Assembly: GCA_012270965.1 (NCBI GenBank)
Contig: JAAXHJ010000080.1
Span: 1 to 42,377 of the forward strand
DNA length: 42,377 bases
Source of the DNA: Candidatus Palauibacter poriticola
GTDB lineage: Bacteria; Gemmatimonadota; Gemmatimonadetes; Palauibacterales; Palauibacteraceae
Reading direction: 5' to 3'
Part shown: in pieces, positions 26,906 through 40,839 of the stretch
How the letters are laid out: every line of letters begins with the position of its first letter
How positions within the stretch are numbered: position 1 is the stretch's first letter
Position numbers and translations under genes: made by a program
Notes under the pieces: model-generated
What the model was told of the DNA's origin: nothing
Database searches by the model: none
What the model saw: the letters and a program-made list of their open reading frames with translations, nothing else

Positions 26906-27421
26906 GCTCGAGGAGTCCACGCTGCCGGTTCCCGACTCTCGGAGCCTGATGCTTCCGGTGCCGCGGGCGCTGGCCGGTGGCAAGGTCACCGCCGTCCGTG
27001 AGGTGCGTGAACGCCATCTCAAGCACGCCCACCTGCGGGGAGTGCTGCAGCGCATCGAGCACCGGGACGCGAGCCCTTCGGCATGGCGGGGGACGGCTTT
27101 GCGCGTCTCAAGGAACTGCGCCACGACGAGTCGAGCAGGGCGTAGTTCGTCGGCGCGATGCCCGGACGGTTCCTCGCGATCCGCTCTGTTCTCGAGCCGG
27201 AGGATCCAACCGCAAGCCGCATCCGCCAATCAATATGCGCATCCGTCTGGGACGAGCGACTACGGGCGGGAGGATCGAAGGACTACCCGGCAGCCATGAC
27301 CACCACCGGTCTTGTGCCGCTGGCTCGGGAAGGTCCGCCAAGAGCACCGCGAGGCTGGCATTGGGTTCGCTTGGCAGACAGAATGGGCGACCATGAGACA
27401 CCCCAGGTCGCGCAGCTTCAA
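26906..27421. other. Non-coding or decayed region between the PIN gene and tRNA-Pro
   Basis: 516 bp in which no frame on either strand gives a protein I can recognise, and the open stretches have shadow-like composition. The only natural-looking fragment is a 20-codon tail at 27083-27145 on the plus strand (MAGDGFARLKELRHDESSRA, then TAG). It has no credible upstream coding sequence and may be the end of a decayed gene. Confidence 0.45.
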
Positions 27422-27495
27422 TCGGGGCGGCCGGATTTGAACCGGCGACCCCCTGCTCCCAAAGCAGGTGCGCTACCGGACTGCGCCACGCCCCG
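27422..27495 (-). tRNA. tRNA-Pro (anticodon TGG)
   Basis: Cloverleaf read on the minus strand: 7-bp acceptor stem (CGGGGCG with CGCCCCG, discriminator A), D-arm with GGTAGCGC, anticodon stem CCTGC/GCAGG enclosing TTTGGGA (anticodon TGG), T-arm GGTTCAAATCC. CCA is not encoded. It lies 57 bp from the divergent signalling operon, so both promoters must share that gap. It also borders the GIY-YIG/PIN island, as tRNA genes often do at insertion sites. Confidence 0.95.
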
Positions 27496-27552
27496 AAGTC
27501 CCGCAACATGGACCGTCCGGCGAGCCGAAGCCACCCCGGCTCGGGAGGGGAG

Positions 27553-30500
27553 GTGAACTTCCGCAGGGTCTTCGCGCCTAGGGCCGGGGCGGGGAAGCTG
27601 TTCGCCATGATGGGGCTGGCGGCGCTCGTCCTCTTCGTCATCGGCATCCTGCGTCCGCTGCGCAGCGCCTTCGCCCTCTCGGGCCTCGCCGCCGGCGACT
27701 TCTACCAGGTGTACTTCCTCAGCGCGGCGGTCGTCGTCGTCGCTCCGTTCTACAACTTCCTCTCGGACCGCATCTCGTGGCGTCGCCTCATCCCCCTGAC
27801 GGCGGCCTTCTTCGCCCTCAGCATGGTCGGCTTCCGCCTCCTCTACCAACCGGGGGAGGCGTGGTTCGGGCTTGTCTTCTACGGGTGGTACGACGTGTTG
27901 GCGGCCTCGCTCGTCACGCACTTCTACATCGCGACGCAGGTCTTCTACAACGCCCGCGATGCGAAGCGCGCCTATCCGGTCGTCATCGCCTCGGGTTCGG
28001 CCGGGGCCACGCTCGGAGCGCTCCTCACGACCGTCTTCACCTCGGGCGGGGGACCGTCGGAGAACCTGCTCTTCGTGGCCGGTGCCGCGCTTCTCCTGCT
28101 CGCAGGCGGCCTCGCACTCGTGTGGTCGCGCGAGCCGCCGGAGCCGCCGCCGGAGTACGCGCACGCGGAAGATCCCGACCTCGAGCGCAGCGACCTGCGG
28201 CGCATGGCCGCGCATCCGCAGGTGCGGCTCATCGCGGCCACCGTCCTGCTCACGATCGTCGTCAAGCAATTCATCGACTACCAGTACAACACGCTCACGC
28301 GCGAGGTCTTCACCGACTTGGGCGCGATCGCCGGCTTCCTGGCCTTCGTCGACGTCCTCACGCAATGGCTCCCGATCGTCGTCCTCCTGGCGCTGCGTCC
28401 GGTCCTGCGCCGCTGGGGCGCCGCAGTCGCCGTCATCATCTTCCCCGTGGCCGTGATCCTCGCGACCGGGGCCCTCGCCGCCGCCGTGTGGTTGTCGACC
28501 GCCGCCCTCGCCGTCGCCGTCGGGGCCCGGACGACGGAGAAGACCTTCCGCTATTCCGCCGAGCGCACGGGCCGCGAGATCCTCTATGTCCCCGTCCCGG
28601 AGGACATCAAACTCAAGGCGAAGTCGTACATCGATGTGGCGGTGGAGAAGGGGCTGGGGAAGGCGCTCTCCGGCGTGCTCATCGCGATCCCCTCGCTCGC
28701 TCTCGCCGGCGTTTCGATCACGGGCCGGCTCATCATCCTCGGGATCGCCGGCGTGGCGCTGGCGGGCGTCCTGCTGGTCGCCTTCCTCAGGGTGCGGAAG
28801 TCGTACGTCACGAGCCTCGCCCAATCCTTCGAGGGGCGCTTCGCGAGCCTGCGCGGAACGTTCGTGTCGATGGCGGACGCGGGGGCGCTGGGGTTCGCGC
28901 GGGACGCGCTGGGGGACGAGCGGCCGCTAAAGATCGCGTTCGCCTTCGACCTGCTGCGCGGCGCCACGCCGGAGGACATCGAGGCGCTCTCCCCGGAGCT
29001 ATACCGCCTCCTCGAGCACGAAAACCCCGGCCTGCGGGCGAAGGCGCTGCGATCGCTGTCCCGCGCGCCCGGCCTCTCGAACGAGGCGGCGGTGCGGGCC
29101 CGGCTCGAAGATCCGGATGCCGCCGTGCGCCGGGCCGCCGCCCGGCTCCTCGCCCTAAAGGCGGTGCCGCGCGCCCGCGATGTCCTCATCCCCCTCCTCG
29201 ACTCGGAGTCGGCGAACGCCCGCTCCGCCGCGCTCGACTGCCTCCTCGGCGACTTCGGCACCGCGCGGGCCGAACGCATCGCGACCCCGCGCTTCGAACA
29301 CCTGCTGCGGGAACATGAGAGGGGGGCGCTCGAAGGATCCCGCGCCCGCGAGTTGGCGTTGGCGGCGGGGCTCGTGCCGGGCCACCCCGCGGTGGAGGGT
29401 ATCCTCCTCGAACTCATCGCCCATCCCCGCGACGACGTGGCGGCGGCCGCCGTGCGGAGCGCGTCCCGGCTGCCGCAGCCGGCTCTCGCGCAGGCGGCCA
29501 TCTCGTCACTGGCGGTCCCGAGGACCCGCAGCGCCGCCCGCGACGGTTTGGCGGGGCGGGGCGAGGAGATCGTCACGCCGCTGCTTGCGGCGCTTGCGGA
29601 CCCCGGCGCCGACCCCTGGGTACGCCGGGGCGTGGCGAGCGTGCTCGGAGAGATCGCGACGCCCGCAGCGGTCGACGCCCTCGTCACGTCCTATCTGCTG
29701 CCCGAAACCGAACAGGCGCTCGACGACCAGGCCCTCGTGTCGCTCCACCGGCTGCGCACGCAGCACGATGATCTCGCCTTTCCGGCGGGGAGGGTGCTCG
29801 AAGCCGTGGAGCGGGAGGTCCAGGCGTCGCTGCGTTACGCCCGCGCCGCCACCGCGCTCGAGGGCGTACCGGCGTCGATGCCTCGAACGCTGCTCCTCCG
29901 AGCGCTCGACGAGGCGAGGCGGGATCGGCGGACGAGTGTGTTTCGGTGGCTTGGGCTCGTATACCCTGAACAGCCGATGCGGCGCAGCTACCTGGCCCTC
30001 CTGAGCGGACGGCCGCGCCGCCGCGCGAACGCCCTGGAATGGATCGAGACCACCGTCGGACACCGCACCTTCTCCGACCTCGGGCCGATGCTCGCGGAGG
30101 AGGAGCCGCCCGGGCCCTCGCGCGCGGCGGGCGAGCTTCTGCGGGAGCTGTGGGACGATGAGGATGCTTGGATCGCGCGCTGTGCGCTCTGGACTTCCTT
30201 CGAAACCGACCGCGACGCGACGCGAGAGGCCCTCGATGGCTTCGCGCACGCGGAACCGGCGCTCGCGCTGGCGGCCCGCCGGCTGGCGCGACGGGCGGAG
30301 ACCTACGCCGAACAGGCGGGGGACGAACGAGACGAGGAAGAGATGGAATTGATCGAAAAGGTGTTTCGACTGCAGAGCGTGGATCTCCTCTCGGGCGTGA
30401 AGAGCCGGCAACTCGCGCTCCTCGCCTCCATCGCGAGGGAGGTCGAGGTGCGGCCGGACGCCATCTTCATCCGCAGGGGGGAGCCGACGGACGCCCTCTA

Positions 30501-30756
30501 CCTCGTGATCCACGGCGAAGTGTCACTCGAGGGGGCGGGAGAGGGATCGATTTCCATCGCCGATGGAGAGGCGTTCGGGACGTGGGCGTTGATCGACGAA
30601 CACCCGAGTCTCGTCGAAGCGCGCGCCGTCGAGCCCACTCGCGTGCTGCGCATTACCCGGGAGGATTTCCGCGACCTTCTCATCGACCACCCCGAACTCG
30701 GCCTCGACCTGCTTCGCGGCCTCGCGAGTCGCGTTCGCGGCTTGGCGATGACATGA
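27553..30756 (+). CDS. Nucleotide-transporter-like membrane protein fused to HEAT repeats and a cNMP-binding domain
   Basis: 1067 aa in three parts. Residues 1 to about 430 form a 12-helix-like transporter of the MFS/ATP:ADP antiporter (Npt1/TlcA-like) type, with RPLRSAFALSG near the first helix. Residues about 450-830 are helical HEAT-type repeats (for example ALRSLSRAPG, DPDAAVRRAAARLLALKA, VRRGVASVLGEIATPAAV). Residues about 920-1067 form a cyclic-nucleotide-binding-like barrel (FIRRGEPTDALYLVIHGEVS, DGEAFGTWALIDEHP). The canonical PBC arginine is not evident, so the ligand is unknown. GTG 27553 follows GGGAGGGGAG; ATG 27508 lacks a site. A membrane sensor or regulated transporter heading the operon that continues with a response regulator. 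Confidence 0.82.
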   Translation: MNFRRVFAPRAGAGKLFAMMGLAALVLFVIGILRPLRSAFALSGLAAGDFYQVYFLSAAVVVVAPFYNFLSDRISWRRLIPLTAAFFALSMVGFRLLYQPGEAWFGLVFYGWYDVLAASLVTHFYIATQVFYNARDAKRAYPVVIASGSAGATLGALLTTVFTSGGGPSENLLFVAGAALLLLAGGLALVWSREPPEPPPEYAHAEDPDLERSDLRRMAAHPQVRLIAATVLLTIVVKQFIDYQYNTLTREVFTDLGAIAGFLAFVDVLTQWLPIVVLLALRPVLRRWGAAVAVIIFPVAVILATGALAAAVWLSTAALAVAVGARTTEKTFRYSAERTGREILYVPVPEDIKLKAKSYIDVAVEKGLGKALSGVLIAIPSLALAGVSITGRLIILGIAGVALAGVLLVAFLRVRKSYVTSLAQSFEGRFASLRGTFVSMADAGALGFARDALGDERPLKIAFAFDLLRGATPEDIEALSPELYRLLEHENPGLRAKALRSLSRAPGLSNEAAVRARLEDPDAAVRRAAARLLALKAVPRARDVLIPLLDSESANARSAALDCLLGDFGTARAERIATPRFEHLLREHERGALEGSRARELALAAGLVPGHPAVEGILLELIAHPRDDVAAAAVRSASRLPQPALAQAAISSLAVPRTRSAARDGLAGRGEEIVTPLLAALADPGADPWVRRGVASVLGEIATPAAVDALVTSYLLPETEQALDDQALVSLHRLRTQHDDLAFPAGRVLEAVEREVQASLRYARAATALEGVPASMPRTLLLRALDEARRDRRTSVFRWLGLVYPEQPMRRSYLALLSGRPRRRANALEWIETTVGHRTFSDLGPMLAEEEPPGPSRAAGELLRELWDDEDAWIARCALWTSFETDRDATREALDGFAHAEPALALAARRLARRAETYAEQAGDERDEEEMELIEKVFRLQSVDLLSGVKSRQLALLASIAREVEVRPDAIFIRRGEPTDALYLVIHGEVSLEGAGEGSISIADGEAFGTWALIDEHPSLVEARAVEPTRVLRITREDFRDLLIDHPELGLDLLRGLASRVRGLAMT

Positions 30757-30762
30757 TCCAAC

Positions 30763-31248
30763 ATGAGTGAGATCAGACCGGACGCCGGTACCGTGATGGT
30801 CGTCGACGACGAGGACATGGTCGTCGACGCCATCCAAGGGTTCCTCGAGCTGGAAACGGACCACGTGGTGCGTCCCTTCACGTCGGCGCGCGCCGCCCTC
30901 GCCCACCTGGAGCAGGAACCCGTGCACGCGATCGTGGCCGACCTCATGATGCCCGAACTCGACGGCGTGCAGTTCCTTACGCGAGCCCGCCGGAGGCGGC
31001 CGGAGGCGGCCCGGATCCTGCTCACGGGCTACGCAGACAAGGAAAACGCCATCTTGGCGATCAACGAGGCCGGGCTCTACCAATACCTTGAGAAGCCGTG
31101 GGACAACGACGCGCTCGCCTTCGCCATCCGCAACGGAGTCGAGCGAAGCCTCCTCTTCCGCGCGCTGACCGAGCGCATGGCCGAACTCGAGGCGGCCAAC
31201 GACGAACTCGCCGGCCTCCGGCAGCGCTGGATCCAAGCCTTCCTTTGA
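30763..31248 (+). CDS. Single-domain response regulator
   Basis: 161 aa. REC domain with acidic pocket D15/D16 (VMVVDDED), phospho-acceptor D60 (IVADLMMPELDG), T88 and K111 (YLEKPWDND). The sequence around LTGYADKENAILAINEAGLYQYLEKPW is typical of receivers paired with RpfG/HD-GYP-like or hybrid systems. After the REC domain there is only a helical, Glu/Leu-rich tail (about 128-157), which could be a coiled coil; no DNA-binding domain. It probably signals by protein contact. Six bases after the cNMP fusion, and overlapping the kinase start by TTGA. Confidence 0.93.
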   Translation: MSEIRPDAGTVMVVDDEDMVVDAIQGFLELETDHVVRPFTSARAALAHLEQEPVHAIVADLMMPELDGVQFLTRARRRRPEAARILLTGYADKENAILAINEAGLYQYLEKPWDNDALAFAIRNGVERSLLFRALTERMAELEAANDELAGLRQRWIQAFL

Positions 31249-32042
31249 GCGGCCAAGGGATCGGGGCGACGGCCCGGGAGATCACTCAGGCCCGGCTCGC
31301 GACGCTCGGCACGCTGGTCGCGGGGATCGCGCACGAACTCAACACTCCGCTGGGGGCGCTGAACAGCAATCACCACGTCATCGAGCGCGCACTTCTCAAG
31401 CTCGGAGCCATTCTCGAGGATGAGGTCGTCACGCCGGACGAACTCGATGAGGTCCGCCGCGTCGTGCGGGCCACTGAGTCGGTGCTGCGCACCAACGGCA
31501 TCGCGGTGGAACGGATGACGAACCTCGTACAGAATCTGCGGAACTTCGGCCGGCCCACGACCTCCGAGGCTCGCCCCGTGGACCTTCATGAAGGGATCGA
31601 GGGCACGCTGGCCCTTCTGGGGCACGAGCTGAGGGAGATCGAGGTCGTCCGGGACTTCGGGGAGCTGCCGCGCGTGGTGTGTCATCCGAACCGGATCAAC
31701 CAGGTGTTCATGAACCTCGTGCACAACGCGGCCCAGGCCATGAACGCTGGCGGCGTGCTAACGATCCGGACGCGCGCGGAAGGGGACCACGCGCGCGTCC
31801 GCGTCGCCGACACGGGCCGGGGCATCCCTTCCGACGTCATCGGCGAGATCTTCGAGCCCGGCTTCACGACCAAGGGCGAGCGGATCGGGATGGGGCTGGG
31901 CCTCGCGATCACGCTCCAGATCGTGCACCAGCACGGAGGAGACATCTCGGTCGAGAGCGAACCGGGACGCGGGACGACGTTCGACGTCTACCTGCCGCTT
32001 CGGCAGCCCACGGGTTCCGCGCGGAAGGAGGCTTCGGCATGA
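31245..32042 (+). CDS. Soluble sensor histidine kinase
   Basis: 265 aa from a TTG overlapping the regulator stop. HisKA box LVAGIAHELNTPLGAL with H30, N-box NLVHNAAQAM with N161, G1 box DTGRGIP (189-195), F-box EIFEPGFTTK and G2 box GMGLGLA (215-221). No membrane helix and no separate sensor domain: only about 10 residues precede the dimerisation helix, so its input must come from a partner, most simply the coupled regulator or the upstream cNMP/HEAT membrane protein. All catalytic motifs are intact. Confidence 0.93.
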   Translation: MSGQGIGATAREITQARLATLGTLVAGIAHELNTPLGALNSNHHVIERALLKLGAILEDEVVTPDELDEVRRVVRATESVLRTNGIAVERMTNLVQNLRNFGRPTTSEARPVDLHEGIEGTLALLGHELREIEVVRDFGELPRVVCHPNRINQVFMNLVHNAAQAMNAGGVLTIRTRAEGDHARVRVADTGRGIPSDVIGEIFEPGFTTKGERIGMGLGLAITLQIVHQHGGDISVESEPGRGTTFDVYLPLRQPTGSARKEASA

Positions 32043-33097
32043 TCCGATGCGGCGGGCCGTTTCGCCCCCCGGCAGCCCGTCGCGAAGCCGCGCCGCGTTC
32101 GAGCGGCGCTGCATCCCGCCACGGACTGCTAATCTTCCTCGCGGCGGTGGCCGCCGTTGCGGCGCCGGCCCCGGCGGCGGCCCAAGACGCCAACTTCCTC
32201 CTCCCCATCGCCGAGATCGAACGGATCCTCCGCGAGGGCGAGATCCAAGTCCTCGACGTACACCCGTCGCGCGGTCTTCCCGGCGAGCGCACCTATCGCG
32301 TGACGCTGCGATCCGGCGACCACGTGCTCCAAGTCAAGTACGCCCCCGCCGGCGAGGGGGCGGATGAGTTCAACAACCGGCCCCGTTACGAGTTGGCGGC
32401 CTACGGCGTCCAAGCGCTCTTCCTCGACGAGCGGGAATGGGTCGTCCCTCCCACCGCGATCCGAGCCTTCCCCCTCGATGTCGTCCGGGCCACGGTCGCC
32501 CGGACGGGAGACGCGGCCAGTCCGCCGGAACCGACGTTCGACGAGTGGCCGATGACCCTCGTCGCGCTCCAGTACTGGATGTTCAACGTCGACCTTCCCG
32601 AGGAGTTGCCCGACGACGACCGAATCGAGGAGGACGAAGTCTACGAGCGTCTCCTCGGGAACTTCAACCTCCTCACCTACATCATCCGCCACAGCGACTC
32701 GAACCGGGGGAACTTCGTGCAGTCGATGGATGAGACGTGGCCGCGCGTGTTCAGCGTCGACAACGGCGTGGCGTTCGCGAGCGAGGAGAGCGACCGCGGC
32801 ACGCGCTGGCGCGATCTGCGCCTCGGCCGCTATCCGGCCTCCGCCATCGACCGGCTTCGCGGCATCTCGCTCGAGGGGCTGCGGACGCGACTCGGGGTCC
32901 TCGTCCAGCTCGAGCTGCGGAACGGGAACTTCGTGGAGGTGGAGCCGACGGAGAATCTCGACCCCGGGCGCGGCGTTCGGCGCGATGCGGAGCGGATCCA
33001 GCTTGGCCTCACGGAGTCGGAGATCCGGGCCATGCACCGACGCATCGTCCGCCTGCTGGAGCGGATCGATGACGGCCGCTACGGGCTGATTCCCTGA
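32039..33097 (+). CDS. Exported FAM20/HipA-like putative kinase
   Basis: 352 aa, start overlapping the histidine kinase stop (ATGA). A signal peptide (hydrophobic core LLIFLAAVAAVAA, ending near residue 49) puts it in the periplasm or outside. The mature part has atypical-kinase landmarks of the FAM20/HipA/PI3K-related group: candidate ATP-binding Lys K100 (HVLQVKYAP), E118 in RYELAAYG, VPPTAIRAF (a frequent motif after the hinge), a catalytic-loop-like RHSDSNRGNF (H218, D220, N225) and VDNGVAF with D241 in the DFG position. FAM20C-type kinases have the closely similar LDNG motif. Substrate and activity are unknown; a degenerate pseudo-kinase cannot be excluded. Confidence 0.65.
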   Translation: MIRCGGPFRPPAARREAAPRSSGAASRHGLLIFLAAVAAVAAPAPAAAQDANFLLPIAEIERILREGEIQVLDVHPSRGLPGERTYRVTLRSGDHVLQVKYAPAGEGADEFNNRPRYELAAYGVQALFLDEREWVVPPTAIRAFPLDVVRATVARTGDAASPPEPTFDEWPMTLVALQYWMFNVDLPEELPDDDRIEEDEVYERLLGNFNLLTYIIRHSDSNRGNFVQSMDETWPRVFSVDNGVAFASEESDRGTRWRDLRLGRYPASAIDRLRGISLEGLRTRLGVLVQLELRNGNFVEVEPTENLDPGRGVRRDAERIQLGLTESEIRAMHRRIVRLLERIDDGRYGLIP

Positions 33098-33111
33098 GTC
33101 GGCGGCGGCGG

Positions 33112-34416
33112 ATGGGGGGTCCGCTGGGCTGTGCGGCCGCCCTCGCGGGGGTGGCGTGGACCGGCGTCTCCTTGCCCGCTTCCGGCGACGCCGCACCCCC
33201 GGCCGGGTCTCCTCCGCGAACGGGACAGCCCGGTTGGCACGTCGCGGGCGAGTACGGACTCTACGTCGCCTTCGCCCGCCCGGGCCTCGAAGTGCGCTGG
33301 CTGACGGAGGAAGAGCGGCCCGGCCTGGTGCGGGCGATCGTTAACGGCCGGGTGGTCGATGAGCGGAGGACGGACCCCGGATACGCGCACGCGGCCCGCC
33401 TCCGCGTACGGGCGCCCACGGTCACGCTCGAATACGGAGCGACACCCGCCGACGGCGCCGGCGGGGCCGCGGCTCTTCACCGAACCCGGATCTGGGCCGA
33501 GTCCCCCCCTCCGGATATCGAGCTCGCGGGCCACGACTCCGTGTTCGTGTTCGGAGATGTGCACGGCGAATTCGACCGCGTCGTCTCGCTGCTCGGCCTC
33601 GCCGGACTGATCGACGCGGACCTACGCTGGACGGGCGGGAGCGCCGCGGTCGCCTTCCTGGGAGACCTGTTCGACCGAGGGAATGACGTCACCCGTCTCC
33701 TTTGGTTCGTCTACCGCCTGGAACGGGAGGCCCTGGCGGCGGGCGGCCGGGTCGTCACGCTCCTCGGCAACCATGAAGCGATGGTTCTGTCGGGCGATCT
33801 CCGCTACGTGGCGCCGAAGGAACAGACGATCGGCGAGCTGCACGGCCTCTCCTACGAGACGCTGTTCGATCCGCGACGTTCCGTCCTCGGACGCTGGATC
33901 GCGGGTAAGCCGGGACTGGTGCGGCTGGAGGATCTGCTGTTCGCGCACGGGGGCGTGAGTCCCGCATACGTCGATTCCTCGCTGGAGGAGTTTCAGGACA
34001 CCTTGGAGACGTTCATCGCGGAGCCGCTGTTCAGGAGATGGCGGGACGAAGCGTTCCTGCGCGAATTTGCGCGCGAAACCCGGCTCGATAGCGCCCAGAT
34101 CTACCGCCGGTACGATTTCTTCTTCGGACCGGAGAGCGTGCTCTGGTATCGGGACCTCGTGCTCGCCGACACGCTCGGGAGACACCTCGATGCCGTCTTG
34201 GAGCGCTTCGAGGCCCGCCTTCACGTCGTCGGACACACGCCCGTGCCCACGATCCGGGAGAGCTACGGGGGAAGGCTCATCGCCGCGGACCTGCTCGACG
34301 CCGCGGCGGAGATGCTGCGCCTCACCCGCCGGCGCGACGGCGGCTGGAACCGTACGGTCATCAAGCTGGACGGCGGCACCGTCGCGCTCGACTCCGCGGC
34401 GCACCCCGGTGCCTGA
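33112..34416 (+). CDS. Exported Shewanella-like PPP-family phosphatase
   Basis: 434 aa. A probable signal peptide (1 to about 25) and a roughly 110-residue N-terminal extension precede a calcineurin-type phosphatase: FGDVHGEFD (D149, H151), LGDLFDRGND (D185), LLGNHEAM (N220, H221), AHGG (H279) and VGHTPVP near residue 363. The long GGRVVTLLGNHEAMVLSGDLRYV (quoted in part: LSGDLRYVAPKEQ) region is characteristic of Shewanella-like (Shelph) protein phosphatases, some of which remove phosphate from tyrosine. It starts 14 bp after the exported kinase-like gene. The pair suggests reversible phosphorylation of envelope proteins. Confidence 0.82.
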   Translation: MGGPLGCAAALAGVAWTGVSLPASGDAAPPAGSPPRTGQPGWHVAGEYGLYVAFARPGLEVRWLTEEERPGLVRAIVNGRVVDERRTDPGYAHAARLRVRAPTVTLEYGATPADGAGGAAALHRTRIWAESPPPDIELAGHDSVFVFGDVHGEFDRVVSLLGLAGLIDADLRWTGGSAAVAFLGDLFDRGNDVTRLLWFVYRLEREALAAGGRVVTLLGNHEAMVLSGDLRYVAPKEQTIGELHGLSYETLFDPRRSVLGRWIAGKPGLVRLEDLLFAHGGVSPAYVDSSLEEFQDTLETFIAEPLFRRWRDEAFLREFARETRLDSAQIYRRYDFFFGPESVLWYRDLVLADTLGRHLDAVLERFEARLHVVGHTPVPTIRESYGGRLIAADLLDAAAEMLRLTRRRDGGWNRTVIKLDGGTVALDSAAHPGA

Positions 34417-34516: not shown

Positions 34517-35743
34517 CTACCGGAGGACTCCGTGCCGGATCTCGCCGCCCCTCGCCGCGGCGACGCACGCGTTGGGCCGCAGGTGGTAGAGCCAGTGCTC
34601 CACGTCCGGGGCATCGATGACCGCGAAATCCGCCGCGGATCCCGGCTCCAGCGACCCGACTTCGCCTTCGCGCCCGAGGGCTCGGGCCGCGTGGCGCGTC
34701 GCGCCTTTGAGCACTTCGGCGGGCGTCATGCGCTGCCGCGCGCACGCCAGCGTCATGGCGAAGGGAAGGTGATAGGACGGTGCCGTGCCGGGATTGAAGT
34801 CGCTCGCCACCGCCACCGCGACGCCCCCGTCGATGAGCGCCCGGGCCGGGGGCGGAGCTTGGTTCAGGTAGAGGCCGGCGAGGGGAAGCGTGACCCCGAC
34901 GACACCGGCTGCCGCGAGTGCCTCGATGCCGGCTTCCGACACGTACTCCAAGTGGTCCGCCGACACGGCCCCGAGAGAGGCCGCGAGTTCCGCCCCGCCA
35001 CCCCCGGAGAGCTGGTCCACGTGGAGTTTCGGCCGTAGCCCCAGCTCGCAGCCTCGTTCGCAGATCCGCCGCGCCTCGTCGGCCGAGAACGCGGAGTCCT
35101 CGACGAACACATCGCAGAAATCGGCCAAGCCCTCCTCCGCCACGGCCGGCAGGATCTCCTCCGTGACGAGCCTTACGTAGCCCTCCCGGTCCGCGGCCCA
35201 TTCCGGAGGGACGACGTGCGCGGCGAGGCAGGTCGCAACCATCCGGGTCGGTCCTACCTCGTCGAGTCGACGGTACACCCGCAGGAGCCGGAGTTCCGAC
35301 TCGAGATCCAGCCCGTACCCGCTCTTCGCCTCGACCGTCGTGATCCCGAGGGAACCCATCCCGGTCAGAAACCGCTTCGCGCGGTCGAAGAGAGCCTCTT
35401 CGTCGAGCGCGCGCGTGGCCCGTACGGTGGAGGCGATCCCGCCTCCCGCCTCGGCGATCTCCAGATAGTCGCGGCCCCGGAGCCGGTCGGAGAACTCGCC
35501 CGCCCGCCAGCCGCCGAAGGCGAGGTGCGTGTGCGCATCCACGAGTCCGGGAATGACGAGCCCTCCGGCGGCGTCCCAGGCGGGCTCCTCTTCGTACTCC
35601 GCCGGCAGCGCCTCGGCCGGCCCGGCCCAGCGGACCGTTCCGCCCCGCCACACGAGGGCCGCGTCCCGGATGAGCCCGATGTCGTCTTGGCCGGCGGGGT
35701 TCGCGCAGGTGGCGAGACAGCCGATGTTCGCGAGGCGCGGCAT
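34517..35743 (-). CDS. hutI: Imidazolonepropionase
   Basis: 408 aa amidohydrolase, third step of histidine degradation (4-imidazolone-5-propionate to N-formimino-glutamate). Metal-binding HTH at H71/H73 (LVDAHTHLAFGGWRAGEF), the substrate Tyr region KSGYGLDLESELRLL, KLHVDQLS with a metal His, and ASDFNPGT with the catalytic Asp. Normal family length. ATG 35743 is 17 bp after hutU and preceded by a G-rich site; it is the last gene of the minus-strand hut operon and runs into the convergent terminator. Confidence 0.96.
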   Translation of the reverse strand: MPRLANIGCLATCANPAGQDDIGLIRDAALVWRGGTVRWAGPAEALPAEYEEEPAWDAAGGLVIPGLVDAHTHLAFGGWRAGEFSDRLRGRDYLEIAEAGGGIASTVRATRALDEEALFDRAKRFLTGMGSLGITTVEAKSGYGLDLESELRLLRVYRRLDEVGPTRMVATCLAAHVVPPEWAADREGYVRLVTEEILPAVAEEGLADFCDVFVEDSAFSADEARRICERGCELGLRPKLHVDQLSGGGGAELAASLGAVSADHLEYVSEAGIEALAAAGVVGVTLPLAGLYLNQAPPPARALIDGGVAVAVASDFNPGTAPSYHLPFAMTLACARQRMTPAEVLKGATRHAARALGREGEVGSLEPGSAADFAVIDAPDVEHWLYHLRPNACVAAARGGEIRHGVLR

Positions 35744-35760
35744 GACGGGGAGCGGGCGGC

Positions 35761-37419
35761 TTACGCGAGCATGGGAAGGTCGACCCCGCGCTCGCGGGCG
35801 GTGCGGATCGCCTCCGGATACCCCGCGTCGGCGTGCCGCATGACCCCGGTCCCCGGATCCGCCGTGAGCACGCGCTCCAGCCGCCGGCTGCCGGCTGCCG
35901 TCCCGTCGGCGACGCACACCATGCCCGCGTGCGTGGAATACCCGACGCCCACGCCGCCCCCGTTGTGGATCGAGACCCAGCTTGCCCCGCAGGCGGTGTT
36001 GAGCATCGCGTTGAGCAGCGGCCAGTCGGCGATCGCGTCGGAACCGTCCCGCATCCCCTCCGTCTCCCGATTCGGCGAAGCTACGGAGCCGGCGTCGAGG
36101 TGGTCGCGTCCGATCACGATGGGCGCCCGCACGCGTCCCGTCTTCACGAGCCAGTTGAAGCGCTCGCCCATCTCCGCCCGCTCTCCGTATTCGAGCCAGC
36201 AGATGCGGGAGGGGAGACCCTGGAAGCGCACCCGCCTGCGCGCCTGGCGGATCCAGCGGCCCAGCGCCTCCTTCTCGGGAAATGTCTCAAGGACGGCGGC
36301 GTCCGTCGCCGCGATGTCACCGGGGTCGCCGGAGACGGCGGCCCACCGGAAGGGTCCCGCGCCCCGGCAGAAGAGGGGTCGGATGAAGGCCGGCACGAAA
36401 CCCGGGATGTCGAAGGCCTCCGCCATCCCGCGCAGGTCGGCCACCTGGCCGCGGAGGTTGTTCCCGTAATCGAACGCGATCGTCCCCCGCGCCTTGAGGG
36501 CGAGCATGGCCGACACGTGCGCCACCATCGAATCGAGTACGCGCTCGACGTAGGCGTCCGGGTCGGAGACGCTCAACGCCTCGGCCTCCTGCACGGACAG
36601 GCCCGCGGGGATGTAGCCGAGCCGGAGGTCGTGCGCCGAGGTCTGATCCGTGAGCACGTCGGGCACGACGCCGCGCTCCGCGAGCGCCGGCAGGACTTCG
36701 GCGATGTTCCCGAGCAGGGCCACCGAGAGCGCCTCCCGCCGGTCCAGGGCGGCCGAGAGCCACTGCAGCGCCTCGTCGAGGTCGGTGGCCATGCGGTCGC
36801 AGTAGCCCGTATCGAGGCGGCGGCGAATGCGGTCCTCGCGGACCTCGACCCCCAGGAAAACCGCCCCGTTCATCGTCGCGGCCAGCGGCTGGGCACCCCC
36901 CATCCCCCCCAGCCCGGCGGTCACCACGAGCCGTCCCGCGAGGGAGCCCCCGAAGTGCTGCCGGGCGAGTTCGGCGAACGTTTCGTACGTCCCCTGGAGA
37001 ATCCCCTGGGTGCCGATGTAGATCCACGAACCCGCGGTCATCTGCCCGTACATCGTTAGCCCCAGCGCATCGAGACGCCGAAACTCGTCGATATCTCCCC
37101 AGCGGGGGACGAGGTGGGCATTCGCGATGAGGACGCGCGGCGCTTCGCCGTGGGTGCGGAACACGCCGACCGGCTTTCCGCTTTGCACGAGAAGGGTCTC
37201 GTCGTTCTCCAGCCGGCGGAGCGTCTCCACGATCTTGGCGTACGCCGACCAGTCGCGCGCCGCCTTGCCCGCGCCCCCGTATACGATGAGGTCCCCCGGA
37301 CGCTCCGCCACGTCCGGGTCGAGGTTGTTCATCAGCATCCGGAGGGCCGCCTCCTGGTGCCATCCCCTGCAGGAGAGCGTCGTTCCCCTCGGTGCCCGGA
37401 TCGGTCCGGCCGGTTTCAT
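35761..37419 (-). CDS. hutU: Urocanate hydratase
   Basis: 552 aa, normal length. Second step of histidine degradation: urocanate to imidazolonepropionate with a tightly bound NAD+ as electrophile. Motifs: [20 protein letters not shown] near the start, [11 protein letters not shown], the NAD-binding [12 protein letters not shown] and the GPFRWAA(V)SGD region, with [18 protein letters not shown] near the C-terminus. The ATG overlaps the formiminotransferase stop (ATGA), giving translational coupling. Confidence 0.97.
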
Positions 37420-38324
37420 GCCTCTCCTCCCTCTCCGGTCTCCGGCAACTCCAATACCTGGTCCGGCGCGAGGTCCGCGTCCAGCAGCGCAAGGTCGAGG
37501 CCGCGAAGGGCCTTGGCGGGCACCGGACCAATGAACTCGCATCCCGCGAGCGCCACTCCCTCCGCCCGCGCTCCTTCGGCGACATGCTCGTACACGGTTT
37601 CGATCCCGGTCACCGCGTAGCGGACCAGGTTCATCGATACCTGCGTCAGCCCCCGCCGCCGGAGCGGGATGCCGAGCGCCCGGACGTGGGGGATCCCGCC
37701 GTCCGACTCCCGGATCGCCGCCGCGATGCGCCGCGCCGGTCCCGGATCCGCCGCGTCCAAGTTCACGTTGAAACGTACGAGCGGCTCCCGCACGCCGACG
37801 GCGACGGCGCCCAGCGCCGGATGGGGCGCCGCAGGACCGAGATCCGGCCGCCACTCGCGGCGCGACAACTTCGCGGCCAGACCCTCGAACTGCCCGGACC
37901 GGACACGGGGGAGGGAAGCCCGCCCCGGGGTCGTCGCCGCCCGCTCGTAGAAGAAGACCGGAACGCCGCGCCGCGCGGTCCACACGCCGAAGGAGCGGGA
38001 TGCCCGGAGCGCATCAGCCTCGGGACAGCCCGGGCCGCGCACGAAGGGAACGACGTCCAGAGCGCCGATCCGGGGATGCCGTCCCCGGTGCCGCCGAAGA
38101 TCGACCTCCGCGTACACCGCCGCCGCGAGCGCCGACGTCGCGCGGACGACCGCCGCCGGGGCGCCCCGGAAGGCGAGCACCATGCGATGGTGGTCCGGGT
38201 CGGCCGACGTGTGTAGCAGTTCCACGCCGCGAGCCTCCTCGACCGCGGCCGCGAAGCGAGCCATCCGGCGTGGATCCCGCCCCTCGCTCACGTTCGGCTC
38301 GCAGAGGAGCCACCCGCGGCTCAG
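37416..38324 (-). CDS. ftcD: Glutamate formimidoyltransferase
   Basis: 302 aa, matching the formiminotransferase half of FTCD (about 300 aa); the cyclodeaminase half is absent. It moves the formimino group of N-formiminoglutamate to tetrahydrofolate, ending histidine degradation in glutamate. Clear motifs: [10 protein letters not shown] at the N-terminus, [49 protein letters not shown] and QVSMNLVRY. No ATG, GTG or TTG precedes CEPNVSEG within about 30 codons. The only start giving the normal N-terminus is CTG 38324, which overlaps the hutH stop as CTGA in the same way as the other junctions of this operon. Confidence 0.92.
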
Positions 38325-39997
38325 AGCGGCGCGCGGGGCCAGAGATCGCCCAACGCGTCCGCAGCTGCCCGTTCCAGCCTCCCATCGTCGATCGCCGCCT
38401 CCAGGCGCGCGACGTCCGCCGCCAGGGAGCGGTCTTCGATGACGGGCGGCACGCACTCGCGCACGGTCTCGTACACGGCCCGCGTGCCCGCCCCCAATCG
38501 GTCCCGGCCCCCGGGGCGGAGGTAGACGGCTTGGGCGGCGCCGAGCAGTTCGATCGCGAGCACCGTACGCGTGTTGTCGAGGATCTCTCGCGTATGCCGG
38601 GCCGCGTTGGCTCCCATGCTCACGTGGTCCTCCTGGTTCGCGCTCGTCGGAATCGAGTCGACGGAGTCCGGGTGCGAGAGCGTCTTGTTGTCGGACACGA
38701 GCGCCGCCCCCGTGTACTGGACCGACATCAAGCCGCCGTGCAACCCCGGAGACTCCACGAGCATGGCGGGAAGCCCGGCGGAGAGTTCCGGCGTCAGCAT
38801 GCGGAACACGCGCCGGTCCGACAGGCTCGCCACATCGGTGAGCGCGATCCCCAGCGCGTCGAGCCACAAGGCCGGCCCCGCGCCGTGGAAGTTGCCGCCC
38901 GACACAACGGCGCCCGGATCCCGTTCCTTGGCGGGAAAGACCAACGGATTGTCCGACACCGCGTTGAGCGATGCCTCCACCCGCCCCCACAGGAAGGCGA
39001 CCATGTCGTGAACCGGGCCGATGACCTGGGGCGTGCAGCGCAGGCTGTAGGCATCCTGTACCCGCTCCGCGTCCGCATCGAGGAGCGCGCTCCCGGAGAG
39101 GATCGACCGAAGCCTCGCTGCGGTTCCGATCTGCCCCGGCTGGTTGTTCGCCTCGTGCAGCGCCGGGTTCAGCGCGGCCGAACGTGCCAGCAGCCCCTCG
39201 AAGCTCAGCGCCGCCGCCAGCTCCGCGTGAAGGAGCAGACGTCGGGCGTCGTGGAGCTGGAGCGCCGCGCCCGCGACCATCATCGTCGTCCCGTTCGTCA
39301 GCGCCAGCCCCTCCTTGGCCTCCAAGCCCGGGCGGGAGATGCCGGCCGCGGCCATCGCGCTCGCCCCGTCCATGCGCCGGCCCTCGAACCACGCCTCGCC
39401 GCTGAATGCCGCCGATTCCTCGCCGGGGTCGCCGGCCGGATCCGCAGCGGAGGAACGGGTCGCGACCGCCGCCATGTGCGCGAGCGGGGCGAGGTCGCCG
39501 CTCGCCCCGAGCGAACCCTTCCCCGGAACCACGGGCGTGACCCCCCGGTTCAGCATCCGGACCAGCGTGTCGATGATCACCGGGCGCACGCCCGAAGCGC
39601 CCAGGGCGAGCGAGTTCGCCCGCACGAGCAGCATCGCCCGCACCCAGTCCTCGGGCAGCGGGGGACCCGTCCCCGTCGCGCACTTGAGGATGAGGTTCCA
39701 CGACAGCCGGGCCGCGTCCGGTGCCGCGATGCGGGCGTCGGCGAGCGCTCCGTAGCCCGTGGTGATTCCATAGATCCGGGCCCCGGGTCGCGCGAGCGCC
39801 TCCACCACGGTGTCCCGGCTCGCCTCCACCCGCTCGCGCGCGTCCCCTTCCAGCTCGCTCACGGGCGAAGCTCCACGCGCCACGGCGATGACGTCGGGAA
39901 TCGAGAGCTTCCGCGACAGCGCTACGGGAGAAGGGGGGCCCGATCCGGCCCCGTCACGGCCCGGAGCGCCCACGGTCCCCCCCATCCCGGCGCTCAT
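38321..39997 (-). CDS. hutH: Histidine ammonia-lyase
   Basis: 558 aa, first step of histidine degradation (histidine to urocanate and ammonia). The MIO-forming Ala-Ser-Gly lies in GSLGASGDLAPLAH. Also visible: YGITTGYGALAD (catalytic Tyr), GLALTNGT, NPLVF and QEDHVSMGA. About 50 residues longer than typical HutH because of an N-terminal extension and a short Ala/Asp/Glu-rich insert after the ASG region (SSAADPAGDPGEESAAF). The ATG overlaps the hemQ stop (ATGA). Confidence 0.96.
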   Translation of the reverse strand: MSAGMGGTVGAPGRDGAGSGPPSPVALSRKLSIPDVIAVARGASPVSELEGDARERVEASRDTVVEALARPGARIYGITTGYGALADARIAAPDAARLSWNLILKCATGTGPPLPEDWVRAMLLVRANSLALGASGVRPVIIDTLVRMLNRGVTPVVPGKGSLGASGDLAPLAHMAAVATRSSAADPAGDPGEESAAFSGEAWFEGRRMDGASAMAAAGISRPGLEAKEGLALTNGTTMMVAGAALQLHDARRLLLHAELAAALSFEGLLARSAALNPALHEANNQPGQIGTAARLRSILSGSALLDADAERVQDAYSLRCTPQVIGPVHDMVAFLWGRVEASLNAVSDNPLVFPAKERDPGAVVSGGNFHGAGPALWLDALGIALTDVASLSDRRVFRMLTPELSAGLPAMLVESPGLHGGLMSVQYTGAALVSDNKTLSHPDSVDSIPTSANQEDHVSMGANAARHTREILDNTRTVLAIELLGAAQAVYLRPGGRDRLGAGTRAVYETVRECVPPVIEDRSLAADVARLEAAIDDGRLERAAADALGDLWPRAPL

Positions 39998-40839
39998 GGC
40001 GCCGCCACGGACGGGAGCAGACCCTCGAACTCGGCCCCGGCCATCCGCTTGCCGACCACGAAGGGACCGAACTCCGCGTACTCCGCGCTCGCCGCGTCGT
40101 AGCGCATCTCGCTGATAATCGCCTTGAACTCCAGTGGATCCTCCGCCCACAGCGTCACGGCCCATTCCCAGTCGTCGAGGCCCATCGACCCGCTGATCAC
40201 CTGAACCACGCGGCCCGCGAAGCGCCGCCCCAACCGGCCGTGCGCGGCTATCAGCCCCGCCCGCTCCTCCAGCGAGAGCGCGTACCAGTTCTGCCCCGGG
40301 TTGCGCCGCTTGTCCATCGGGTAATGGCACACGTATGGCATGTGCTCCGGCTGCCTCGGCTCGAGCCGGCGCCGCACATATCCCTTGCGCCGCTCCTCCG
40401 CGAGGGCCTCCGCCAGGGCGGCGTCCCACGCCTCGCGGTCTCCCGGATCGATCCGCCCGGAAAGTTCCCGAGTCAGGGCGTAGAGACCCAACTCCACCAC
40501 GGACAGGTACTCGTCGCGGACGAGGGCGTGGTCGCCGAAGGCGGAGAGCTTCAGTTCGCGCACCGCTTCGATGAGGCGGTCGAACGTGTCCCGGAAATGG
40601 AGGACGAGAAAGTCGATCCCGCCACCCGCGACGCGGTAGACCCCGGACCAGCCCGGCTCCGACGCGGCGGACCACCTCTCCGCCAGCGCGGCCAAGCTCC
40701 TCAGCGCCTCCCGGGCCTCCACCGGATCCGCGCCCTTGAGGCCGGCCCAGTCGAGTTCGACCGATTGATGGAGGACATACCACCCCTCGAGGGAAGCGGG
40801 CGGGAGTTCGGAGGAATGCGGGAGGGGACGGCTCGTCAC
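39994..40839 (-). CDS. hemQ: Coproheme decarboxylase (HemQ, chlorite-dismutase-like)
   Basis: 281 aa. Converts coproheme III to haem b in the coproporphyrin-dependent haem pathway. The Cld-fold core holds HYPMDKRR (Y173 is the expected catalytic Tyr), NWYAL and LIAAHGRLGRRF (H200 as proximal haem ligand), followed by SGSMGLDDWEWAVTLW. It lacks the distal Arg pattern of chlorite dismutases as far as I can see, so HemQ is more likely. The GTG start overlaps the upstream TM2 gene and its stop overlaps hutH, an unexpected partner. It fits with hemC at the left end of the window. Confidence 0.93.
   Translation of the reverse strand: MTSRPLPHSSELPPASLEGWYVLHQSVELDWAGLKGADPVEAREALRSLAALAERWSAASEPGWSGVYRVAGGGIDFLVLHFRDTFDRLIEAVRELKLSAFGDHALVRDEYLSVVELGLYALTRELSGRIDPGDREAWDAALAEALAEERRKGYVRRRLEPRQPEHMPYVCHYPMDKRRNPGQNWYALSLEERAGLIAAHGRLGRRFAGRVVQVISGSMGLDDWEWAVTLWAEDPLEFKAIISEMRYDAASAEYAEFGPFVVGKRMAGAEFEGLLPSVAAP

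Follow-up and report, generated by a model that had tools for sequence, protein, structure and literature searches.

ATP is normally lacking outside the bacterial cytoplasm, and ATP-dependent chemistry is usually ruled out there. In the endoplasmic reticulum (ER) and the Golgi, a lumenal kinase is supplied by a membrane nucleotide exchanger. Among bacterial proteins, CotH is a spore-coat assembly kinase related to FAM20C (PMC12189002), the Shewanella-like PPP phosphatases (Shelphs) are treated in PMC535813 and the Legionella kinome in PMC9758233. Transporters of the ATP/ADP-translocase type (NTT) that combine the transporter domain with HEAT repeats and a cyclic-nucleotide-binding domain (NTT-HEAT-cNBD) are widespread in bacteria, free-living species included. 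Their function is left open in the survey of Major et al. (2017, PMC5381601), which considers uptake tuned by cAMP, passage across thylakoids and an exchange of ATP from cell to cell. Here we describe a stretch of 42,377 nt from Candidatus Palauibacter poriticola (GCA_012270965.1, contig JAAXHJ010000080.1; "the window"), in which a kinase-like protein of 352 aa, called kin below, is encoded together with an NTT-HEAT-cNBD protein and a Shelph.

On balance we lean towards the view that these genes form an operon whose products phosphorylate and dephosphorylate a target outside the cytoplasm and also supply the ATP needed there. A sequence-only reading of the window had proposed reversible phosphorylation of this kind from kin and Shelph. 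The kinase fold, the catalytic residues, the export signals and the genetic linkage speak for that proposal, but it was incomplete, since the three upstream genes of the operon, the NTT carrier among them, had been overlooked.

Organization of the operon

Five genes lie in a tight cluster on the forward strand, which we infer to be an operon headed by the NTT gene. The NTT-HEAT-cNBD protein (27508..30756, 1082 aa) has its ATP/ADP-translocase-type domain at about residues 16-440, followed by the HEAT repeats and the C-terminal cyclic-nucleotide-binding domain. Its stop codon is separated by 6 bp from a response-regulator receiver gene (30763..31248, 161 aa; Pfam Response_reg 79.6 bits). A histidine kinase follows (31098..32042; HATPase_c 97 bits, HisKA 27.6 bits); its mechanically called open reading frame (ORF) overlaps the receiver gene, and the true start is probably further in. 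The histidine kinase gene shares 4 bp with the kin gene, which runs from an ATG at 32039 to the stop at 33097. After 14 bp the gene for the 434-residue Shelph begins with an ATG at 33112 and ends at 34416, so that the positions and the spacing of the last two genes had been read correctly. The genome (3.56 Mb in 99 contigs) contains a single match to kin.

Kin as a predicted kinase

Behind a signal peptide (about residues 1-48), kin contains K100, E118, the stretch H218-S-D220-S-N-R-G224-N225-F and V240-D241-N-G, with K100, E118, D220, N225 and D241 as presumed catalytic residues. These motifs, already placed in this way by the sequence-only reading, can hardly be due to chance because they are conserved across 70 aligned homologs. 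D220, G224, N225, D241 and N242 are invariant in 70/70, K100 and E118 are each kept in 65/70 and G243 in 61/70; at position 100 the others have His (2), Gln (1), Leu (1) or a gap (1). Hence the residue set of an active protein-kinase-like enzyme (K, E, catalytic D and N, metal-binding D) appears to be conserved in kin. In L063, L070 and L069 (L marks our numbering of loci), where kin adjoins NTT and Shelph genes, the ATP-binding lysine is His or Gln, and in L063 and L070 the VDNG glycine is also replaced by D; these proteins might be altered or inactive kinases.

Of 60 relatives, counting the own genome, 21 have a homolog of kin. The near relatives that bear names are Candidatus Palauibacter and other metagenome-assembled genomes (MAGs) of Gemmatimonadales. 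In a sample of 395 genomes of the phylum Gemmatimonadota 33 have kin, one of them (genome G028) on the strength of a 34-residue fragment. A collection of named genomes yielded 40 kin loci, with KSB1, Calditrichaeota, Bacteroidota, Gammaproteobacteria and Deltaproteobacteria or Myxococcales among the titles; three of these 40 rows (L046, L047 and L050) were dropped from an alignment as near-identical.

The window kin matched no Pfam family at E <= 1 and, by phmmer against the PDB, no solved relative at E 1. The same search with another single kin protein gave an irrelevant match only, and the kin profile retrieved tyrosyl-tRNA synthetases, the 434 repressor and one short PI3K stretch at E 0.13 to 0.71. 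A Pfam scan of 38 aligned members touched 13 families, of which PI3_PI4_kinase (PF00454) was the commonest, if weak, match (24/38, best E 1.8e-5), besides ABC1 (7/38) and Fam20C (2/38, best E 0.04). The PF00454 gathering score of 27.1 bits was not reached by two kin relatives scanned alone (18.8 and 17.2 bits). TIGR03843 (SCO1664 family) was rejected for kin at E 0.12 and 11.7 bits against a cut-off of 172.4.

The AlphaFold2 model of kin has a mean pLDDT of 88.9 and a pTM of 0.83. In the model K100 lies in a strand and E118 in the next helix, D220 and N225 are located between helix 200-215 and strand 226-229, and D241 follows strand 237-239, which is the predicted layout of a kinase. The ten best Foldseek matches are all PI4K-II alpha or beta (E 1e-7 to 8e-5, probability 1.00, TM-scores 0.33-0.46); PI3K comes next, then CtkA (15th) and PINK1, among the best 50 of 1451. 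PI4K-II shares the motif order of K, E, catalytic D/N and D-N-G. Judged from the model, a protein-kinase-like fold closest to PI4K-II and PI3K is well supported for kin.

The earlier assignment to a FAM20/HipA-type kinase is thereby divided: kinase fold and motif order stand, and a fold unrelated to kinases did not emerge, but the tie to FAM20 or HipA is not retained, since Foldseek ranks PI4K-II and PI3K first. FAM20 is absent from the best 50 of 1451 Foldseek matches and has the marginal Pfam hits given above. HipA is found neither among the 13 Pfam families nor among the same best 50 matches, and CotH is likewise not among the families touched by the 38 relatives.

Export signals and the phosphatase

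Export was assessed with a crude in-house rule (hydrophobic stretch plus small-x-small site), not with SignalP. A signal-peptide-like N-terminus was detected in 37/38 kin homologs and 15/16 phosphatase homologs, compared with 0/3 control ORFs of the window, which are few. The signal peptides read earlier in kin and Shelph are in line with this result, and export of both proteins appears well supported. A lipobox is present in 4/38 kin homologs (L078, L079, L081 and L082, Deltaproteobacteria/Myxococcales).

The phosphatase (Pfam Metallophos 46.8 bits) matches the solved phosphatases 2z72, 2zbm and 1v73, which we take to come from Shewanella, with E 4.3e-37 to 6.1e-37 in phmmer. It contains the PPP metal motifs GDVHG, GDLFDRG, GNHE, HGG and GHT, as the sequence-only reading had noted, and seven residues of these motifs (D149, H151, D185, N220, H221, H279 and H375) are invariant across 17 sequences. 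By motifs and by similarity it thus qualifies as a predicted Shewanella-like PPP phosphatase. The gammaproteobacterial phosphatases beside kin (L067 6964-8934 and L072 2982-5231) are larger, 657 and 750 aa as called, and combine a PPP domain with an extended C-terminal region in which Pfam finds nothing at E 0.1.

PI4K-II alpha and beta are the best fold matches of kin and PF00454 is the commonest, if weak, Pfam match of its relatives, which would suit an exported PI4K-II-type lipid kinase that acts on a membrane lipid head group, with Shelph as a lipid phosphatase or a broad one. We regard this as unlikely: the solved relatives of Shelph are named protein-tyrosine-phosphatase, and the PI3/4K superfamily also holds protein kinases. 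With respect to the ATP supply, a lipid kinase would be a sub-case of the reading that we prefer.

The NTT-HEAT-cNBD carrier

In the window NTT, HEAT_2 (59.2 bits) and cNMP_binding (50.9 bits) both exceed their Pfam cut-offs. The NTT profile finds an ADP,ATP carrier (9j3n, 1.9e-27) and AtNTT1 of Arabidopsis (9j3j, 4.5e-25) in the PDB. A model of the transporter domain (pLDDT 87.2) has AtNTT1 and C. pneumoniae NTT1 as its top four Foldseek matches, with TM-scores of 0.62-0.83 by query length, and the best value, 0.83, belongs to ATP-bound AtNTT1. The domain is accordingly modelled with the ATP/ADP-translocase fold. With NTT domain, HEAT repeats and cNMP-binding domain in one chain, the protein belongs to the NTT-HEAT-cNBD subfamily.

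In a tree of 59 NTT rows the kin-associated NTTs of Gemmatimonadota fall together in a single clade (100/100) of 21 rows, of which all but that of G041 come from kin genomes. Further kin-adjacent groups are a KSB1 pair (L054 and L287, 100/100), a pair with long ORFs (L272 and L280, 100/100), a gammaproteobacterial group that includes one NTT of a kin-less genome (100/100) and a Myxococcota-type group (100/100; of that class, kin genomes alone entered). L278, L279 and the second NTT of L280 are placed elsewhere, weakly or on long branches. L201 and L216 were left out of this tree as long branches and the region-end NTTs L270 and L271 were not added; both trees that were calculated contain only a dozen hand-picked NTT rows from kin-less genomes, none of them from kin-less Myxococcota-type, and row L194 in both comes from the kin genome G032. 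According to the trees, one and the same kinase family seems to have NTTs of different lineages as neighbours, which make up about five distinct groups. Each of these groups may be an independent event, or they may be the remains of an old linkage that was partly lost.

In KSB1-phylum kin genomes tandem NTT pairs recur, one ORF being short and the other 936-961 aa (L203 3220-7420 in G408, G685:C683, G666:C113 and G628:C163).

Association within Gemmatimonadota

In the loci of the 21 relatives Shelph follows kin in 18 (gaps of 5-46 bp by rule-chosen starts), and 15 of them have an NTT. Among the 12 class-level loci kin adjoins an NTT in 12/12 and a Shelph in 7/12; for two of the five loci without Shelph the contig stops right after kin. 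Across the locus sets as a whole the gene order varies while the partners are kept: kin is convergent with Shelph in L063, L070 and L125.

Among the 395 sampled genomes the orthologous NTT clade occurs in 30/33 with kin and 2/362 without (Fisher p 2.8e-39, truncated genes counted on both sides; 28/33 versus 1/362, p 1.1e-36, without them), and the Shelph clade in 28/33 versus 4/362 (p 1.3e-33); the p values overstate the evidence, since the genomes are related. Many of the genomes are MAGs with short contigs. Counted by genus, the NTT is found in 14/15 with kin versus 1/123 without (p 4e-17) and Shelph in 11/15 versus 1/123 (p 3e-12). The truncated NTTs of G185 and G308 were put in the clade for lying on a kin contig, and shorter fragments in kin-less genomes would escape detection. 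The NTT profile was derived from kin-adjacent NTTs, which therefore score highest by construction; against this bias we offer the trees and a gap from 538 to 357 bits between the scores of full-length matches. The NTT clade is lacking in the kin genomes G021, G028 and G032, the Shelph clade in G021, G038, G074, G335 and G352. Thus the NTT is tied to kin at least as firmly as Shelph is.

In three genomes the NTT ortholog is far from kin (G037 about 376 kb, G038 73 kb, G040 1,024 kb), with a histidine kinase beside it in 3/3 and a response regulator in 2/3. Since it is retained at distances of 73 kb to 1 Mb, the presence of the NTT is not mere hitch-hiking with kin. The truncated clade NTT of G157 (L298 4395-5378) lies on a contig that ends about 0.5 kb further on; both other sampled members of the genus have kin.

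Association in other phyla

Of the 40 named loci, many of which are from Gemmatimonadota and which share genomes with the other locus sets, 24 have an NTT and 23 a Shelph-type phosphatase. In L054 the NTT stands between kin and Shelph (order kin-NTT-Shelph). In L067 and L072 (Gammaproteobacteria) kin is accompanied by the larger, divergent PPP phosphatase and by an NTT without the long C-terminal part, and in L076 (Deltaproteobacteria by title) kin and NTT are back to back. L054 and L065 belong to genome G404. Its record is titled Bacteroidota, but the genome falls into the same phylum as the KSB1 genome G408, and the title is likely to be outdated or mistaken.

A set of 31 further kin regions was fetched after the NTT profile had been built, with kin fragments and already-seen loci left out. 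An NTT is near kin in 10 of them (Gammaproteobacteria 2/2, Myxococcota-type class 7/18, KSB1 phylum 1/9, Calditrichota phylum 0/2), whereas the chance expectation is about 1% (53 NTT matches in 24 genomes of about 5 Mb); Shelph is near kin in 5. Outside this set, a fragment of kin lies 70 bp away from an NTT in G582. Every kin genome searched has some NTT (33/33 in the Gemmatimonadota sample, 19/19 and 24/24 in two further sets), compared with 203/362 kin-less genomes of that sample. For loci with neither NTT nor Shelph, no common further neighbour was recognised by eye among 18 loci, four of which (L269, L273, L274 and L284) gave no listing as their kin had dropped out when ORFs were chosen.

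The recurrence of this conserved association with different NTT lineages is well supported. The linkage of kin with Shelph, which the sequence-only reading had noticed in the window, is conserved in many lineages and missing in others.

Flanking genes

A tRNA-Pro gene (tgg; 27421-27496, reverse strand) is located directly upstream of the operon, 11 bp before the NTT start as called. Downstream, convergent genes on the reverse strand (34517-40783) resemble those of histidine degradation and are presumably HutI, HutU and HutH; the first of them, checked by Pfam, is an amidohydrolase. These genes flank the module in 12/14 loci of the genus and in 0/7 other loci. Consequently, they were ruled out as part of the module.

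Proposed mechanism and alternatives

From the composition of the operon we infer a direction of transport, substrates for carrier and kinase, an action of Shelph on the kin product and a role for the two-component pair. The NTT in the inner membrane would send cytoplasmic ATP out and take ADP in. Exported kin would use this ATP to phosphorylate a target in the periplasm or further out, which could be a protein, a lipid or a glycan. The resulting ADP would return through the NTT, which would spare the cell a drain on its adenylates. Exported Shelph would take the phosphate off the kin product and close the cycle. The carrier could be gated or switched from inside by its HEAT and cNMP-binding domains together with the receiver and the histidine kinase, all of which are presumably cytoplasmic. 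On a plain reading an ATP/ADP antiporter suits a kinase well, because ATP goes out and ADP comes back without net loss of adenylate. The presence of such a carrier in the module meets the objection that ATP is missing beyond the cytoplasm.

Several observations weigh against this mechanism. The strongest single doubt is that the characterised NTTs are described as importers (PMC5381601); outward transport of ATP is therefore an assumption. The window NTT fails the Pfam TLC cut-off by 1.5 bits (19.5 versus 21), which three other NTTs beside kin pass (L067 40.5, L076 43.5 and L054 21.5 bits). Some NTT is present in 203/362 kin-less sampled Gemmatimonadota, and NTTs therefore have other uses too. 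In two genomes a clade NTT was found and kin was not: G041 (86% complete, with an NTT, response-regulator and histidine-kinase locus) and G157 (truncated gene on a 5.9-kb contig). Four genomes (Shelph loci L184, L185, L186 and L187) have a Shelph ortholog without kin, and no kin is near Shelph in any of them. Neither NTT nor Shelph accompanies kin in 11/40 named loci and 17/31 further regions, both new Calditrichota loci included. Shelph gave no match in 10/18 kin genomes searched, among them all six of Deltaproteobacteria/Myxococcota-type; in two others the one match is short and generic. Finally, a loss of residues had been named in advance as a possible objection: D220 and D241 are never lost, but K100 is replaced in 4/70 homologs.

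Candidatus Palauibacter, which is among the near relatives, is sponge-associated. In such surroundings the exported enzymes could process extracellular nucleotides or phospho-compounds for import of the product by the NTT, with kin as a small-molecule kinase or nucleotide sensor. The import described for characterised NTTs (PMC5381601) and the broad specificity that bacterial PPP phosphatases can have (PMC535813) would agree with salvage of this kind. However, an ATP-consuming kinase fits a scavenging route poorly, isolate names suggest soil (L058) and sediment (L063, L083), where external ATP should be scarce, and Myxococcota-type loci have kin and NTT without Shelph. Hence we judge nucleotide salvage to be improbable.

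It is similarly doubtful that kin phosphorylates outside the cytoplasm with ATP from elsewhere while the NTT carries NAD or another nucleotide and is linked to kin by shared response-regulator and histidine-kinase regulation. NTT substrates do vary, NAD for PamNTT4 being one example (PMC5381601), and where kin is far away or was not found (G037, G038, G040 and G041) the NTT is accompanied by a histidine kinase in every case and by a response regulator in three of the four. But NTT and kin stay together without adjoining regulators in L114, L119, L122 and L058. Moreover, kin adjoins NTTs with ORFs of 481-616 aa, too short for the HEAT/cNBD part, in nine loci (L067, L072, L076, L267, L268, L270, L271, L278 and L286; L067 and L076 are the Pfam-checked ones).

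That kin has a kinase fold but another chemistry or none (AMPylation, other nucleotide-dependent transfer, an ATP-sensing pseudokinase) is very unlikely, for although SelO and SidJ are kinase-fold enzymes with other activities, K100 is not universal and the PI4K-II match is partial by TM-score, D220, N225 and D241 are invariant and a phosphatase is the second most common partner of kin found.

Beyond this operon, dedicated ATP/ADP exchangers, recruited repeatedly from different NTT lineages to power exported kinases, could be a general bacterial answer to the lack of ATP in the periplasm; we put this forward tentatively, at slightly less than an even chance. If this is true, the NTT fusions of free-living bacteria would gain a function and ATP-dependent reversible phosphorylation would be established as a periplasmic process. 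Carrier, kinase and phosphatase in one operon make such phosphorylation directly testable outside the bacterial cytoplasm.

Comparison with known systems

Among the papers listed by searches of the open literature (subscription journals and preprints outside the scope), none joins an NTT with an exported kinase as far as titles and abstracts go, and in the Palauibacterales paper (PMC10469786) the words "kinase" and "phosphatase" are absent from the main text. Kin is predicted to share the fold of the catalytic domains of PI4K-II and PI3K (PF00454). It differs from them in being bacterial and probably exported, and Pfam does not recognise the window member at E 1. Kin would resemble FAM20C and CotH in phosphorylating away from the cytosol, but in Pfam the relation is marginal for the former and absent for the latter, and neither appears among the best 50 of 1451 fold matches. 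The window phosphatase shares the PPP metal motifs of the Shelphs and matches solved ones at E 4e-37; it is distinguished by its export-signal-like N-terminus and by its genetic tie to a kinase and a carrier. Phosphorylation in the ER and Golgi is similar in principle, namely an exchanger-fed kinase, but takes place in eukaryotic organelles with unrelated proteins. The window NTT has the same domain architecture as the proteins surveyed in 2017, for which the parts of the survey drawn on here name no kinase or phosphatase partner (PMC5381601). It is encoded with both partners, and the operon offers a concrete function for NTT-HEAT-cNBD proteins.

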